Shown piece after piece: positions 4,796 to 44,649 of a stretch of 44,649 nucleotides of DNA. The stretch's first letter is position 1; the number at the start of each line of letters is the position of its first letter. The notes beneath the pieces are model-generated. The model worked only from the letters and a program-made list of their open reading frames with translations, made no database searches and was not told where the DNA came from. Origin of the DNA: a virus. Location of the stretch: positions 1 through 44,649 of IMG/VR virus record IMGVR_UViG_3300015245_000283; one strand, 5' to 3'. The position numbers were made by a program, and so were the translations under genes.

Positions 4796-5034
4796 GCGAT
4801 GGCGTGCATGAAATACATGGCACGAGTTGCCGAGAAAATAATGCGGGCCGAACGCCTGCTTTGTGCTCGATTGAGGAGCGCGGCTATACGGTGATTCTGA
4901 AAGGGACCGGGCAGTTTGGATCGGTGCTAACATCGGCGCAGGCTCGCTATCTGGCAAGCAAGCTCTATCGTCTGGCGCGACGCATCCGCCAGCGGGAAGT
5001 CGAAAATGAGAGCGTGGGCGGCGGGGCGCAATGA
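4792..5034 (+). CDS. hypothetical protein, 80 aa
   Basis: Lies between the Cro-like gene and the sliding clamp with ATGA overlaps on both sides, so the three are probably co-translated. The middle (GYTVILKGTGQFGSVLTSAQARYLASKLYRLARRI) looks like a short strand pair followed by a basic helix. No family recognised. Confidence 0.65.
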   Translation: MSDGVHEIHGTSCRENNAGRTPALCSIEERGYTVILKGTGQFGSVLTSAQARYLASKLYRLARRIRQREVENESVGGGAQ

Positions 5035-6128
5035 CCATCATCACCGCCAATCGCGCTACCCTTGCCGCAGCACTCAAGCACGGCGCCTCGATTATCGAGA
5101 AAAGCAACATCCCCGTAATCAACAATGTTCGGTTATCGGTAGCCCGCGGGCAAGCGGCGCTTCTGTTCACTGATCGGTCGCTGTGGCTATCCGTCTCGGT
5201 TGAGGCCCGGTCCGACACCATTACCGCGATCACGCTTCCGGCGGCACTTTTCTCGCGCACAGTTGCCGCCATGGATGGGGATGCCATCAAACTGGCCATT
5301 ACCAAGGCGCAGGCTATCCTTACATGTGGCCGGACGGAGTTCAAACTTCCGACGATCCCGGCCGACCAGTTCCCAGGATTACCCGAAGACGCATTCGGCG
5401 CGAAGGAGCCGGCGATCGTATCTGCCTCAGCGCTGGCATCTGCGCTCGGAAGCGTGACCTACGCCCTGCCATCTATGATCTGCAATCATCCACAGGCGAT
5501 CCTGTTCGATTTTGTGGATGGTGACATTCACCTCATTGCCAGAGATCGCAGCCGAAGCGCGCATGATCTGGTCGTCAATGGTGGCGTCGATTTCGGCAGT
5601 TTCGGCCTGCCGCTCAAGGCATCGCAACTGATCGCCAGCCTATGCGAAGAATCTCGCGATATCGATGTCACGATCCGCACAACGGACCGGCTGGCGCTAT
5701 TCGAGATAGGACGATGGCAGGTGATAACCGCCATCGCCGAAATGAAGACATTCGCCTATGCTGCGGTGATTGATGAACGCCCCGGCGATCCGATCATTTT
5801 CGACCCGCGCGAAATGGGCAAGGCCCTTGACCGACTGGGGCTGATATCGGATCAATATTCGATGGGCATCAAGCTTGAGTTGGCCGATGATACGGCCACG
5901 CTGTCGGTCGTCAATCACAAGTCCGGGGAGGCCAGTGAGCGTGTGACGATCGCCTATGAAGGTGACGCACAAACGCTCGGCTATAGCCTGCCATACCTGC
6001 GGGACGCCCTACGCAAGATACCGGGAGAAGAAGTGGAGATGTATATTTCCTCCCCCATCAAACGAGCGCTTATCACCTCCCGCGATTCGGACGGCGGGAC
6101 GCATATCATCGGTCCGTTTCTGGTTTGA
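5031..6128 (+). CDS. dnaN: DNA polymerase III beta sliding clamp homologue
   Basis: 365 residues, the full length of bacterial DnaN. Family signatures: N-terminal helix with ALKHGASIIEKSNIPVINNVRL, ILTCGRTEFKLPTIPADQFPGLP (equivalent to the FTLPTLPAxDFP segment), and a C-terminus THIIGPFLV equivalent to the HVVMPMRL end that forms the partner-binding pocket. The clamp is a ring that tethers polymerase to DNA. No phage polymerase is present, so it probably recruits or retunes host Pol III. Intact, with no frameshift or missing domain. Confidence 0.9.
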   Translation: MTIITANRATLAAALKHGASIIEKSNIPVINNVRLSVARGQAALLFTDRSLWLSVSVEARSDTITAITLPAALFSRTVAAMDGDAIKLAITKAQAILTCGRTEFKLPTIPADQFPGLPEDAFGAKEPAIVSASALASALGSVTYALPSMICNHPQAILFDFVDGDIHLIARDRSRSAHDLVVNGGVDFGSFGLPLKASQLIASLCEESRDIDVTIRTTDRLALFEIGRWQVITAIAEMKTFAYAAVIDERPGDPIIFDPREMGKALDRLGLISDQYSMGIKLELADDTATLSVVNHKSGEASERVTIAYEGDAQTLGYSLPYLRDALRKIPGEEVEMYISSPIKRALITSRDSDGGTHIIGPFLV

Positions 6129-7888: not shown

Positions 7889-8334
7889 GTCGCTGGTTCC
7901 GCATGTATGGCGAGGCTCTTGATGATCCAAAGGTGCAGAAATTGCCTGCTGAGGACTTCCGCGGATGGTTCAATTTGCTGTGCCTCACGTCGCGCTGTGA
8001 TGGTAAATTACCCCCAATCGAAGATGTCGCTTTCGCGCTGCGTATGTCTCAAGACGGTGCCCGAACGCTCATCGAACGCCTCCGTAACGCTGGCCTTATC
8101 GACCGTTGCAGCGGTGGCGCTAACGGTGCCCACGACGCCCCGCACTCATGGGATAAAAGACAATATAAATCAGACACTTCTACGGACCGCGTGAAACGTT
8201 TCCGGAAACGTTTCAGTAACACCAATGTAACGTCCCCAGATACAGAGACAGATACAGAGACAGAAGTAAAAGAAGAAAGACCCCCCAACCATGAAAAAAC
8301 TACAGTCGTTTATATAGAGGGGCTGCGCACGTGA
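7885..8334 (+). CDS. replication initiator-like protein with embedded origin
   Basis: 149 residues. The N-terminal 75 residues form a winged-helix domain typical of phage replication-start proteins: MSRWFRMYGEALDDPKVQ, WFNLLCLTSRCDGKLPPIEDVAFALRMSQDGARTLIERLRNAGLID. The C-terminal half is polar and disordered because its DNA holds a 22-bp palindrome and repeats (8193-8280). As in lambda O, the origin would lie inside the initiator gene. A helicase and a primase gene follow with ATGA/GTGA-type overlaps. Confidence 0.65.
   Translation: MSRWFRMYGEALDDPKVQKLPAEDFRGWFNLLCLTSRCDGKLPPIEDVAFALRMSQDGARTLIERLRNAGLIDRCSGGANGAHDAPHSWDKRQYKSDTSTDRVKRFRKRFSNTNVTSPDTETDTETEVKEERPPNHEKTTVVYIEGLRT
8193..8280. 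other. candidate replication origin
   Basis: A perfect 22-bp palindrome at 8193-8214 made of two GAAACGTTTC decamers around CG, then two direct copies of AGATACAGAGAC (8238-8261) and a purine-rich, GC-poor tract to 8280. The surrounding DNA is GC-rich. Position inside an initiator-like gene, just before helicase and primase genes, supports an origin. Confidence 0.6.
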
Positions 8335-9788
8335 ATCGCGAACCGAGGGCACATCAAACCACCGCGATCGAAATGCTCCGCGATGCGTATCGGCGGAAAA
8401 AGCGCAGGCCGCTGCTCCAGATTGCTACTGGAGGGGGAAAGACGTTTGTCGCCGCGATGGTGGTCGAATCGGCCCGCCGGCGGGGCCATAGGGTGCTATT
8501 CATTGTCGATGCGATCTCACTCATCGACCAGACGGTTGAGGCGTTTTATGCGGAGGGCCTGAGCGGAATGGGCGTGATCCAGGCTGATCATCCGATGACC
8601 GATTGGTCGAAGCCGATCCAGATCGCCTCGGTTCAGACATTGCGCCGCCGCGGTATGCCGGAAGATATCCAGATCGTCGTGGTCGATGAGGCGCATTGTC
8701 AGGATGAATGGCTCAAGGCAATCATGGCAAGCGGGGAATGGGCAGATGTCCCGTTCATTGGTTTGAGCGCGACCCCTTGGAGCAAGGGGCTCGGTCATGT
8801 GTATGACGATCTCCTCATTCCAGTGACGATGCAGGAATTGATAGATCTTGGGCTATTGTCGCCCTTTCGCGTCTATGCTGCCGCCCATCCAGACCTCTCT
8901 GGCGTCAAGACGATCGCGGGCGATTATCACGAAGGCCAGTTGGCCGATGTCATGTCTGGCGGGGAACTGGTTGGGGATATCGTTTCTACATGGCGGCGGC
9001 TGGGGATGGGCTTGCCTACGGTCGCATTTTGCGTCGATCGAGCCCATGCCAAGAAAGTTCAGGCTCGTTTTGTCAATGCCGGGATTCCGTGGGGATATAT
9101 CGATGCCTATACCGATCGCGTGGAGCGAAAAGAGGTCCGGCGCCAACTCGACGCAGGCGAAATATGCGGGGTGGCAAATGTCGGATGCCTGACAAAGGGG
9201 GTTGATTGGGCGCTGGGATGCATCATCCTCGCCCGACCGACGAAATCGGAAATGCTGTTCGTCCAGATGGTGGGCAGGGGTCTCAGGATTAACGAAGGAA
9301 TTGGTGATTGCATCATCCTGGATCATGCTGACAACACGCTGCGCCATGGGTTCGTGACGGACATTCACCATCCCCAGTTGTGCATGGCGGTGAAGGGCGA
9401 TCGCGCCGCTCCCGAGCGCAAAGAAGCGCTACCGAAAGAATGCCCGTCCTGTTCGTTTGTGAAGCCACCAAAAGTGCGAGAATGTCCGGGATGCGGCTTC
9501 ATTCCAGAAGTGCGCTCGGATATCGACGAGCAGGAAGGCGAGCTACAGGAGGTCAAGCGTGTCAAATCAGACAAAAACGAAAAGCAGACATGGCACGCGC
9601 AATTGCGGTTTCTCGCACGGGAGCGTGGGTATAAATCTGGCTGGATTGCCAACACATACCGAGCGCGCTTCGGTGTTTGGCCTCGCGGCCTTGATGAGCA
9701 TCGGATGACAATGCCCAGTCCAGAGGTTCGAAACTACGTGCAAAGCCTGATGATCCGCCATGCGAAGAGCGTTCGGAAGGCGGCATGA
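8331..9788 (+). CDS. SF2 DEAD/DEAH-box helicase
   Basis: 485 residues with the superfamily 2 motifs in order: Q-like RAHQTTAI, Walker A ATGGGKT (32-38), DEAH (119-122), SAT (146-148), and motif VI QMVGRGLR. A C-terminal zinc-ribbon follows (CPSCSFVKPPKVRECPGCG). ATP-driven DNA unwinding in phage replication or recombination is the likely role. GTG start overlaps the initiator stop. A RecG/UvsW-like branch-migration function is possible and cannot be separated by eye. Confidence 0.85.
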   Translation: MNREPRAHQTTAIEMLRDAYRRKKRRPLLQIATGGGKTFVAAMVVESARRRGHRVLFIVDAISLIDQTVEAFYAEGLSGMGVIQADHPMTDWSKPIQIASVQTLRRRGMPEDIQIVVVDEAHCQDEWLKAIMASGEWADVPFIGLSATPWSKGLGHVYDDLLIPVTMQELIDLGLLSPFRVYAAAHPDLSGVKTIAGDYHEGQLADVMSGGELVGDIVSTWRRLGMGLPTVAFCVDRAHAKKVQARFVNAGIPWGYIDAYTDRVERKEVRRQLDAGEICGVANVGCLTKGVDWALGCIILARPTKSEMLFVQMVGRGLRINEGIGDCIILDHADNTLRHGFVTDIHHPQLCMAVKGDRAAPERKEALPKECPSCSFVKPPKVRECPGCGFIPEVRSDIDEQEGELQEVKRVKSDKNEKQTWHAQLRFLARERGYKSGWIANTYRARFGVWPRGLDEHRMTMPSPEVRNYVQSLMIRHAKSVRKAA

Positions 9789-42056: not shown

Positions 42057-42263
42057 TCATTCCTCACCCCAGTAGCTCATATCGGCATCAACGCAGGCCT
42101 CCGGGCCCTCCTCGCGCATGTCGAGATCGTCCCAATATGCCGGGGCGGTTTCGTCGGCATGGGCCGAGATCGATTCGCCATCAGCAAAGTACGTGCCAGC
42201 GCGAGACAGCATGTGCTCCCGGAAGCGTCGACAGAACTCCTCTTGCTCCAGCATCTCGCTCAC
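42057..42263 (-). CDS. hypothetical acidic protein, 68 aa
   Basis: MSEMLEQEEFCRRFREHMLS then an Asp/Glu-rich C-terminus (WDDLDMREEGPEACVDADMSYWGEE). Overlaps the upstream gene. A negatively charged mimic of DNA is conceivable but not supported by family. Confidence 0.5.
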   Translation of the reverse strand: MSEMLEQEEFCRRFREHMLSRAGTYFADGESISAHADETAPAYWDDLDMREEGPEACVDADMSYWGEE

Positions 42264-42484
42264 GCGCTGGGCTCCTTATCCTGGGTGACGAGTCGGTAGC
42301 GGATGATCCATCCCTCGTGTGGCCCGTTTTGCTTCCATGCGTTGAACTTGTAGCTCACGCCGCCATCGAACCATCGCGCCCGTCCGACCTGCCAATCGCG
42401 CGTACCGAACTGGACTTCTACCATCGTATCGCCATCGACGGGGCGTTCTCCGCCTTTCCACCAGCCATCTTCCTGCTTATCCAT
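42260..42484 (-). CDS. hypothetical protein, 74 aa
   Basis: Start 42484 (MDKQEDGWWKGGERPVDGDT) inside the end of the upstream gene with GGAGAAG before it. A small beta domain (MVEVQFGTRDWQVGRARWFDGGVSYKFNAW, IIRYRLV). This 'WHxGxxPxxxxxxVEVxxRxG' style is frequent in phage accessory proteins. Function unknown. Confidence 0.6.
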   Translation of the reverse strand: MDKQEDGWWKGGERPVDGDTMVEVQFGTRDWQVGRARWFDGGVSYKFNAWKQNGPHEGWIIRYRLVTQDKEPSA

Positions 42485-42986
42485 TGCTCTTCTCCTTGGT
42501 TGGGTGGGGCGTGAGGTGGGCGAATATCCCCAGCCCGTTCGAATGCGCGCGCTCCAAAGCCGTGACACCCCGATCGCCGGCCGCGAACAGCGCGGTCCCG
42601 TTCGATGGCGAGACGCCTTCTGTGCCGTCTGGACGCAGGAACCTGATCTTGCGGGTGAACAGGACTGCGTCGGCTTTCCGCCATGCATCCTGAAACCACG
42701 GTGCGCTGGTGCGGTCCGGGGTGAGGGCGATTCCGTTGCCATAAGCGAAGAACTTGCTCAGCCACGGCGCGAGAGCGTTGCGGCCCTCGAATGGCGCATT
42801 CATCCAGATATACCCATGCCAGCGCTTGCCGAGTGATCCGCTGGAAATGAATTGATCGCACGGCGTAATCGGCTGCTCGATTGGCGGATGCGCAACATCA
42901 AGATCGAACCGACAGCCGAGCGCGTCGAACACGAATTTCGGCGTGTACCACTCGTTGCTGGCTCCTGCGGTTTCCCAGTGGCTCAT
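42477..42986 (-). CDS. Dam-like phage adenine methyltransferase, altered catalytic motif
   Basis: 169 residues. The family start NEWYTPKFVFDALGCRFDLDVAHP and the segment GRNALAPWLSKFFAYGNGIALTPDRTSAPWFQDAWRKADAVLF match phage N6-adenine methyltransferases (Dam, Pfam PF05869). The catalytic tetrapeptide, usually (D/N)PP(Y/F), here reads NAPF (residues 63-66). If correct, that may reduce activity. It would methylate phage DNA against host restriction or for timing. ATGA overlap with the upstream methyltransferase. Confidence 0.8.
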   Translation of the reverse strand: MSHWETAGASNEWYTPKFVFDALGCRFDLDVAHPPIEQPITPCDQFISSGSLGKRWHGYIWMNAPFEGRNALAPWLSKFFAYGNGIALTPDRTSAPWFQDAWRKADAVLFTRKIRFLRPDGTEGVSPSNGTALFAAGDRGVTALERAHSNGLGIFAHLTPHPTKEKSNG

Positions 42987-43558
42987 GAGCGCCCACTCCT
43001 CGTTTCGGGCGTATCCACAGGCAAGGTGAACAGGCCCCGCCATGTTCGCCACGCCTCGGTAACGGCGCCGGTGCCCGGATATAGGTCAATGAGATCATCT
43101 TCGGGCCGTGCGCCAAGGGCCTCGAAAGCCCAGTGACAAACCTTTTCCGGCTTTGCGCCAGTCAGGCCGCGCTTGAGCGTGATTGGGCACTCAACCCAGT
43201 CACGCATGACGAGCCTCTTGCTGACGACCGGCTTTCGGGCCGGCTTGATGATTACGGGCTCCCATGCATAGGCTACTGAAACATTGCGTTTGAAGGCCGC
43301 GAAACCCTTCACCCACGACATCCACCGCGCGCCGGTCTGCTCGACCAGTGGCGCGAGTATGGCCATGGATCTTGGCGTCGCAGATGCGTGTAGAACCCAT
43401 CCGTCATATTCGCTTTCGAGGCGCTCGATTAGTTCGGCATGGTCGACCTCGCCCGCGAAAGTGGGCTGATCGGAATAGAGATGAGCGCAGCCGATATAGG
43501 GCGGATCGGCATAACCGAGCCTCTTCCCGCCCCCTTGCGTGTTGGGCTGGGGGTTCAT
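42983..43558 (-). CDS. DNA methyltransferase, DPPY type
   Basis: 191 residues with YADPPYIG (17-21), the catalytic motif of N6-adenine or N4-cytosine methyltransferases. DLYPGTGAV, the AdoMet-binding motif I, follows near residue 160; catalysis-first order resembles the beta class. No long target-recognition domain is present. It overlaps the genes on both sides by four bases. Confidence 0.75.
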   Translation of the reverse strand: MNPQPNTQGGGKRLGYADPPYIGCAHLYSDQPTFAGEVDHAELIERLESEYDGWVLHASATPRSMAILAPLVEQTGARWMSWVKGFAAFKRNVSVAYAWEPVIIKPARKPVVSKRLVMRDWVECPITLKRGLTGAKPEKVCHWAFEALGARPEDDLIDLYPGTGAVTEAWRTWRGLFTLPVDTPETRSGRS

Positions 43559-44196
43559 GCGGCCATCCGATGCTGCTCGATCAGATGATCGCCCCAGCGC
43601 TGCGCCATGGCCGCGGCAATGCCGGGGAAGAACCGCGAGCGTTCGCGCCAGCGATCCGGGCCGGGCGAGGCATGATGCACGCGGGCTTCACGGCCGGCAA
43701 CGATGTCGGTCGGCTCCAGCAGCGGCAGGTTACGCAGCCAGAGGCAGGTGCGCTTTGTTTCCGGATGGCCGTACTCCCACGGCTGCACGGATTGGGCAAA
43801 GGGCTCATACCCGACGATCCGCTCTTTCGCATGCCGATGCATGACAGGATTCTCGACCGCGACATGCGGCACCGGCGCATTCCAGACCGACGAGAACAGC
43901 GCTGCGCCTTCGTCCAGCTCGCGCCACATTTCCTCATACGTCCGGCCGGGCGGCGGCACTGACAGCCAGCGGACGCCGCTATTGCAAAGGCGTTTGCATG
44001 GAGGATGAAAGACACCGAGGAAATCCCAGCCGTAACCGAGCACTTCCCGGATATCGCCGCGGATATGGCGGTTGCTGCCCCGCTCATCGGGGAGAACGTC
44101 GTTCGACCATGCATCGAAACCGCGAGCTAGGAATGCGTCGCGAACCGTGCCGCTGGTTTCGCAGCCGATCAGGACCTTGATGCTGGCGGGGTTCAT
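43555..44196 (-). CDS. C5-cytosine methyltransferase-like protein
   Basis: 213 residues. AdoMet-binding start (VLIGCETSGTVRDAFLARGFDAWSNDV), HPPCKRL with the Pro-Cys pair of C5 enzymes (64-67), VENP (114-117) in place of ENV, and FFPGIAAAMAQRWG at the end. About half the length of typical Dcm enzymes, so target recognition is reduced or comes from a partner. It may methylate cytosine in DNA or RNA, or work with the PP-loop gene next to it. Confidence 0.7.
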   Translation of the reverse strand: MNPASIKVLIGCETSGTVRDAFLARGFDAWSNDVLPDERGSNRHIRGDIREVLGYGWDFLGVFHPPCKRLCNSGVRWLSVPPPGRTYEEMWRELDEGAALFSSVWNAPVPHVAVENPVMHRHAKERIVGYEPFAQSVQPWEYGHPETKRTCLWLRNLPLLEPTDIVAGREARVHHASPGPDRWRERSRFFPGIAAAMAQRWGDHLIEQHRMAA

Positions 44197-44649
44197 GCGG
44201 GGATGGCCTGATCGAACAGGTCGTAATTACGTTGGTTGCAATCCGAGCACATCATGCCGCCGGCCGTTGCGAACTTCGGCTTACCGGGAGGGCGAACGCC
44301 CCATTTTGCATGGACGCCGGCGGCCTCTGCCTCACGCTCCAAGCCTCGGATGACCGCCGCAGTCGCGGGATAGCTCATTTCGATATCGATAAGTTCTTCC
44401 TTCTTGGCGAAGGCGCCGCAAAGGCACTCGCCCGACATGCAGAGCTTTTCGGTAACCGGATTACGCGGCAGGCTGTGGCGACGCATATACTCGATCTTGT
44501 CGTCATCATCCCAGTGCAGGATGGGCGATATCCAGAGCTGCGCCCCGATGCGCTGGACTGGTTCGACATGGCCCATCCGGCGAACGCTTTCGGACAGGCG
44601 GACACCAGTGATGAGACCGATGCGATCTTTCCAAGAGGTTTTGTGCTCG
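44193..44649 (-). CDS. PAPS-reductase-like PP-loop protein, C-terminal part
   Basis: About 151 residues, running off the window. Contains KDRIGLITGVRLSESVRRMGHVEP, ISPILHWDDDDKIEYMRRHSLPRNPVTEKLCMSGECLCGAF and ATAGGMMCSDCNQRNYDLFD, i.e. several Cys (CMSGECLCG, CSDC) compatible with a zinc or iron-sulfur site. The N-terminal part with the PP-loop is at 288-599. Together about 255-275 residues, typical of the family. It overlaps the cytosine methyltransferase gene by four bases, suggesting a joint role. Confidence 0.8.
   Translation of the reverse strand, partial: EHKTSWKDRIGLITGVRLSESVRRMGHVEPVQRIGAQLWISPILHWDDDDKIEYMRRHSLPRNPVTEKLCMSGECLCGAFAKKEELIDIEMSYPATAAVIRGLEREAEAAGVHAKWGVRPPGKPKFATAGGMMCSDCNQRNYDLFDQAIPA

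Follow-up and report, generated by a model that had tools for sequence, protein, structure and literature searches.

The four adjoining genes at the right end of this phage contig are probably part of one translationally coupled early operon of a tailed phage, into which accessory genes were acquired independently of each other, and they probably do not form one machine: the three methyltransferases would be orphan anti-restriction enzymes, and the PP-loop gene would have a separate job. We regard the set as a chance collection of accessory genes and not as a sulfur-based machine because relatives never carry it together. The window analysed here is the whole IMG/VR record IMGVR_UViG_3300015245_000283, 44649 bases long and derived from an uncultured phage.

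In the ORF listing the four genes appear as consecutive minus-strand frames in the order PP-loop (44648-44193), C5-like (44196-43555, 213 aa), DPPY-type (43558-42983, 191 aa) and Dam-like (42986-42477). At the PP-loop/C5-like and the C5-like/DPPY junctions 4 bases are shared in the sequence ATGA. The DPPY/Dam-like junction is also a 4-base ATGA, provided that the Dam-like gene starts at the ATG at 42986 (MSHWETAGASNEWY); the mechanical ORF call chose the GTG at 43052, which would create a 70-base overlap with the DPPY gene and is the less likely of the two starts. The Dam-like gene in turn shares 8 bases with the next small gene of the operon (42260-42484, minus strand), whose C-terminal part matched phrog_9174 (E 1.7e-8). 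Overlaps as short as these, ATGA included, mark an operon with translational coupling, an arrangement that is common in phages. The sequence-only reading had described four consecutive genes overlapping by 4-10 bases, and this description holds for the order and the overlaps; the PP-loop gene, however, is represented between 42477 and 44649 only by a C-terminal fragment.

The remainder of the PP-loop gene lies at the opposite end of the contig. The right-end part, which is of the PAPS_reduct type and is cut at its 5' side by the contig end, carries CMSGECLCG and CSDC and lacks the PP-loop itself, whereas the SGGNDS motif is encoded at 599-288 on the minus strand, in a frame with a GTG start that aligns with residues 1-103 of the intact relatives L041 and L042. 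Both halves are collinear with these two relatives, and the stretch of approximately 17 residues (51 bases) that would connect them is absent. Because the halves sit at both ends and are collinear in this way, the phage genome is a nearly closed circle, short of about 51 bases, and the operon continues upstream across the contig ends. The upstream order is an unassigned gene at 596-901 followed, all on the minus strand, by an HNH-nuclease-like gene (1471-1824; phrog_1588, E 1.6e-16; phrog_96 HNH, E 5e-5), a NinB gene (1818-2213; PF05772, 89.6 bits) and an exonuclease gene (2213-2974; phrog_7838, E 5.7e-44). Elsewhere in the window, a homologue of the sliding clamp (DNA polymerase III beta subunit) in which the N- and C-terminal domains are both present is encoded at 5031-6128 on the plus strand, an unusual gene for a phage of this size (about 44 kb).

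Positions 1-287 (listed on the minus strand) are foreign to the PP-loop gene. Beyond the break point the translation runs in a different frame and resembles the C-terminal end of an ABC-transporter ATPase, putatively of the LivF type; the segment is an assembly chimera or a host junction, joined inside the PP-loop gene. Joining the contig ends in frame as one 350-residue protein was rejected, since the middle of such a protein would be foreign sequence in another frame, with 51 bases missing. If the foreign segment were taken as a sign that the contig is chimeric as a whole, the four-gene array could itself be an artefact, but the break is at the far end, and the four genes overlap one another without interruption. 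Moreover, in L041 and L042 a single uninterrupted gene corresponds to both PP-loop halves, and thus the array is joined to the phage NinB and exonuclease genes. We consider an artefactual array extremely unlikely.

Family assignments of the three methyltransferase-type genes differed in firmness. The Dam-like protein scored 30.5 bits with PF05869 (curated cut-off 28.1) and matched phrog_111 at E 1.5e-20, in agreement with its original designation. The C5-like protein matched phrog_757 ('DNA methyltransferase') at E 1.3e-53 over 206 of its 213 residues. Among 87 aligned members of its family the Cys of HPPC was present in all and ENP in 99 per cent, and these motifs are consistent with C5 motifs IV and VI as assigned by eye. 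Assignment of the protein to the Pfam C5 family (PF00145) was not supported: there was no Pfam match, and an hhalign comparison with three canonical C5 enzymes, in which both alignments were shallow, gave a probability of 0.3%. Because Pfam C5 did not match and the profile comparison was not significant, the label 'C5-like' rests on short motifs.

The compact DPPY protein matched no Pfam or NCBIfam family, had no confident family match and showed no detectable sequence similarity to solved structures. It has DPPY at residues 18-21 and DLYPGTG at 158-164, and residues D18, P19, Y21, D158, G162 and G164 were invariant in 30 sequences, one relative having DPVY. DPPY followed by a C-terminal glycine-rich SAM motif is the order found in the beta class of amino-methyltransferases. 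An AlphaFold2 model (pLDDT 81.5) gave METTL3 and MboIIA as best Foldseek matches (E 6e-5 to 7e-5), with probabilities of about 1.00 to MboIIA, HpyAVI, CcrM and METTL3 and modest TM-scores of approximately 0.4-0.5. As modelled, the protein has a methyltransferase fold, and the motifs and the model together bear out the original description of the gene as DPPY-type.

The proposal that the four genes constitute a composite DNA-modification module had named joint conservation in related phages as a check, and this comparison was made. Among 20 related records (19 found via the terminase and one via the exonuclease) none carried two of the four genes together; a strong C5-like match, a Dam match and a DPPY match were each found once, and a PP-loop match over the cut-off was found in none. 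The nearest relative, IMGVR_UViG_3300048893_000087, has a terminase of 87% identity and collinear structural genes. It carries the C5-like gene at 81% and lacks the PP-loop, DPPY and Dam-like genes. A tblastx comparison with this record was noisy except in long matches.

Loci centred on each of the four genes gave the same picture. No relative of the C5-like or the Dam-like gene was present in the 39 viral DPPY loci, and when the whole DPPY records and the two closest PP-loop records were searched, PF05869 was found in 0 of 41, two of the 39 DPPY records had PF01507, and phrog_757 was matched strongly in one. In the 122 PP-loop loci (about 5 kb) there were six C5-like genes, one Dam gene and no DPPY gene; 50 whole PP-loop records contained four strong phrog_757 matches and three Dam matches over the cut-off, all in different records. 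The 80 C5-like loci included two Dam genes, one DPPY gene and three PP-loop genes (L064, L067 and L100), the last of which were considered as members of the window's subfamily and rejected as distant PP-loop proteins. PF01507 exceeded its cut-off in six of 50 whole C5-like records and Dam was found in three, one of these being a Dam-centred record of the list. The 14 Dam loci contained none of the other three genes. In total, about 300 gene-centred loci were compared, and three of the four genes were together in no examined record except the window, although these absences are not absolute because many viral records are fragments. The genes thus do not co-occur in related phages, and the composite module is not supported.

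Relatives of the DPPY gene were also found outside phages. Mostly with 70-79% identity, they lie in a conjugation cluster of mainly Alphaproteobacteria in 34 of 42 genome loci (within L273-L309, for example L281:69-9585). The order in the cluster is C5 methylase, DUF2840-type, TraF-type, DUF736-type, SLT transglycosylase, DPPY, DUF3363 relaxase and TraG. Pfam searches confirmed SLT, DUF3363, TraG, PF01507 and PF00145, whereas the names DUF2840, TraF and DUF736 are tentative and follow the gene order. No such cluster was seen around the viral DPPY loci. Occurrence in conjugation clusters is what one would expect of a gene that protects mobile elements, and the distribution suggests that the DPPY enzyme serves mobile elements of several kinds in this way. 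In nine of the clusters (L274, L275, L276, L277, L281, L282, L294, L297 and L308) a 382-aa PP-loop gene sits next to the C5 gene and forms a recurrent pair with it; in L281 the two overlap. The PP-loop matches near bacterial DPPY genes were examined as candidate members of the window's family and rejected: they belong to this longer subfamily inside the conjugation clusters.

For the PP-loop protein the original proposal had pointed to DndC, a PP-loop enzyme of DNA sulfur modification, and had offered a sulfur chemistry as an inference. The window fragment scored 24.5 bits with PF01507, over the cut-off, and matched phrog_424 at E 3.7e-12; its close relative L041 (279 residues) scored 36.2 bits. 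The relatives share a signature consisting of SGG.DS (117/122), SGEC.CG (116/122) and a subsequent CxxC (112/122). In the window SGGNDS is at the left end and SGECLCG with CSDC at the right end, and this signature and the profile match together place the protein in phrog_424. The conserved cysteines could hold a metal or Fe-S centre. If the protein were an equivalent of DndC or SspD, the phage would carry its own DNA phosphorothioation; membership of the PF01507 superfamily, common to both, and cysteines able to accommodate an Fe-S cluster would agree with this. The PADLOC models argue against it, and identification as DndC was rejected on their scores: the best DndC score was 10.2 bits (E 0.065) with a full-length relative, and the window fragment did not match. 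L041 is also much shorter than the 468-481 residues of the DndC models. In Dnd systems the DndD-DndE pair is the required core (PMC10853773), and no PADLOC match to DndD, DndE, SspB or SspC was detected among the 54 other window proteins. Phosphorothioation by this gene is therefore extremely unlikely, and the sulfur chemistry of the original proposal is not supported.

A CysH-type PAPS reductase serving sulfate assimilation is the other reading that the PF01507 match brings to mind. CysH structures are among the best sequence and fold matches, and there is precedent for it, phage PAPS reductases having been reported as auxiliary metabolic genes (PMC7785012, PMC8879888). Genes of this kind frequently receive that annotation in the phage literature. 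Nevertheless, the catalytic ECGxH motif of CysH was found in none of the 122 relatives, on which ground identification as CysH was rejected, and the CysH equivalog models gave, with the fragment as query, 25.9 bits against a cut-off of 154. A metabolic role of this type is unlikely. The AlphaFold2 model of L041 (pLDDT 86.9) resembled CysH-type reductases, TtuA sulfur transferases and FAD synthase about equally well by score, and therefore the fold does not reveal the substrate.

One part of the supposed linkage survived, in the form of a weak association between PP-loop genes and canonical C5 methylase genes that does not include the particular genes of this window. Of the 122 PP-loop loci, 20 had a canonical C5 gene, compared with 8 of 143 control loci, for which terminase-, C5-like- and Dam-centred neighbourhoods were pooled (Fisher P 0.005, uncorrected for relatedness); by locus such genes were about threefold more frequent near the PP-loop gene. 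The controls differ in host clade, the loci are not independent, and DPPY-centred loci, in which canonical C5 genes occurred in 10 of 39 viral cases, were left out. Because of this enrichment, the PP-loop gene may have some tie to cytosine methylation, and a functional PP-loop/C5 pair is a modest possibility. In such a pair the methylase would mark or flip the cytosine, and the PP-loop enzyme would adenylate and further modify it (by thiolation or amidation) to a restriction-resistant hypermodified base. The overlap of the two genes in the window is compatible with this, as are the enrichment itself, the six loci (L169, L204, L313, L324, L346 and L354) with C5-type genes within 150 bases of the PP-loop gene or overlapping it, the nine conjugation-cluster loci in which a different PP-loop subfamily adjoins the C5 methylase gene, and the high rank of TtuA, which is a sulfur transferase with a PP-loop, in the structural comparison.

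Against this, about 80% of the PP-loop loci had no C5-type gene within 5 kb, and DnaB-type helicases, primases and nucleases are among the more frequent neighbours; family searches of the immediate neighbours returned a mixture of replication and nuclease genes and a few methylases. Only 6 of the 122 PP-loop loci had a member of the window's C5-like family nearby, and the PP-loop genes near three of the 80 C5-like genes were distant relatives. The host clades of the control loci and their lack of independence also count against a pair. Taking these observations into account, we think it improbable that the two genes work as a pair. The wider proposition, that PP-loop ATP-pyrophosphatases of phages and conjugative elements repeatedly pair with C5-type enzymes for two-step cytosine hypermodification, an undescribed anti-restriction chemistry of which the overlap in the window would be one instance, is very improbable. 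Independently acquired genes in one operon remain the preferred reading.

The restriction context was also inspected. The genes adjoining the methyltransferases do not belong to known nuclease families that could supply a cognate restriction enzyme, and there is only the HNH-like gene, which lies some 0.9 kb upstream of the PP-loop gene. As for the restriction matches given by PADLOC, the SF2 helicase at 8331-9788 most likely accounts for them through helicase-type similarity. Within 288-44649 CTAG (13 seen, 43 expected), CGCG, GGCC, CTCGAG, CCCGGG and GCATGC were depleted and GATC was not. As a point against the preferred reading, the scarcity of CTAG, CGCG, GGCC and several palindromes of six bases suggests that this genome is still being shaped by restriction. 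Palindrome avoidance was set aside as a test of protection by the methyltransferases in either direction, being uninformative without the methylated sites.

From the families and folds we infer the following catalysis, targets and anti-restriction role. The Dam-like enzyme is predicted to methylate adenine at N6, the DPPY enzyme adenine at N6 or cytosine at N4, and the C5-like enzyme, the least certain of the three, cytosine at C5. Soon after entry the three orphan methyltransferases would probably mark the phage DNA, each at its own site, and DNA so marked would be spared by host restriction enzymes. The PP-loop enzyme has an ATP-pyrophosphatase-type fold and probably adenylates a target in an unrelated ATP-dependent reaction; nothing ties it to DNA specifically. 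Protection of phage DNA from restriction, as originally proposed for the combination, is accordingly retained as plausible for three methyltransferase-type genes in a coupled operon, but not as the work of a composite module, the genes not being co-conserved.

The analysis leaves without support the tempting view that phage 'PAPS reductase' genes stand for phosphorothioation, and it shows the four genes to be mobile independently of each other. Two leads come out of it: one is a compact family of methyltransferases that phages share with conjugative elements, the other a moderate association between cytosine methylases and the PP-loop enzymes of phages. Among known systems, anti-restriction by orphan methyltransferases of phages and plasmids is well known (PMC12707154). 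The window resembles these cases in having no restriction partner, in the location of the genes among the early genes of a tailed phage, and in that PF05869 (Dam-like) and phrog_757 are known phage families. It differs in that three types share a coupled operon and have a PP-loop gene as neighbour, and in that the DPPY enzyme is outside the Pfam and NCBIfam families. This enzyme is like MboIIA, HpyAVI, CcrM and the MT-A70 enzymes in having DPPY before the glycine-rich motif and in its predicted fold (Foldseek E 6e-5 to 5e-4), but it has only 191 residues and no detectable sequence similarity to the solved structures. With the Dnd and Ssp systems (DndC/SspD) the PP-loop protein shares the superfamily and the conserved cysteines, whereas a recognizable DndC profile match and the DndD/DndE or SspB/SspC partners are missing. 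The DUF3363/TraG conjugation cluster likewise contains a close DPPY relative, which is often accompanied by a C5 methylase and in some cases by a PP-loop gene; the cluster is, however, a conjugative element and not a phage, and its PP-loop gene is of the longer subfamily (382 aa). With phrog_424, annotated as 'phosphoadenosine phosphosulfate reductase', the PP-loop protein of the window shares family and signature, and nothing fundamental sets it apart.
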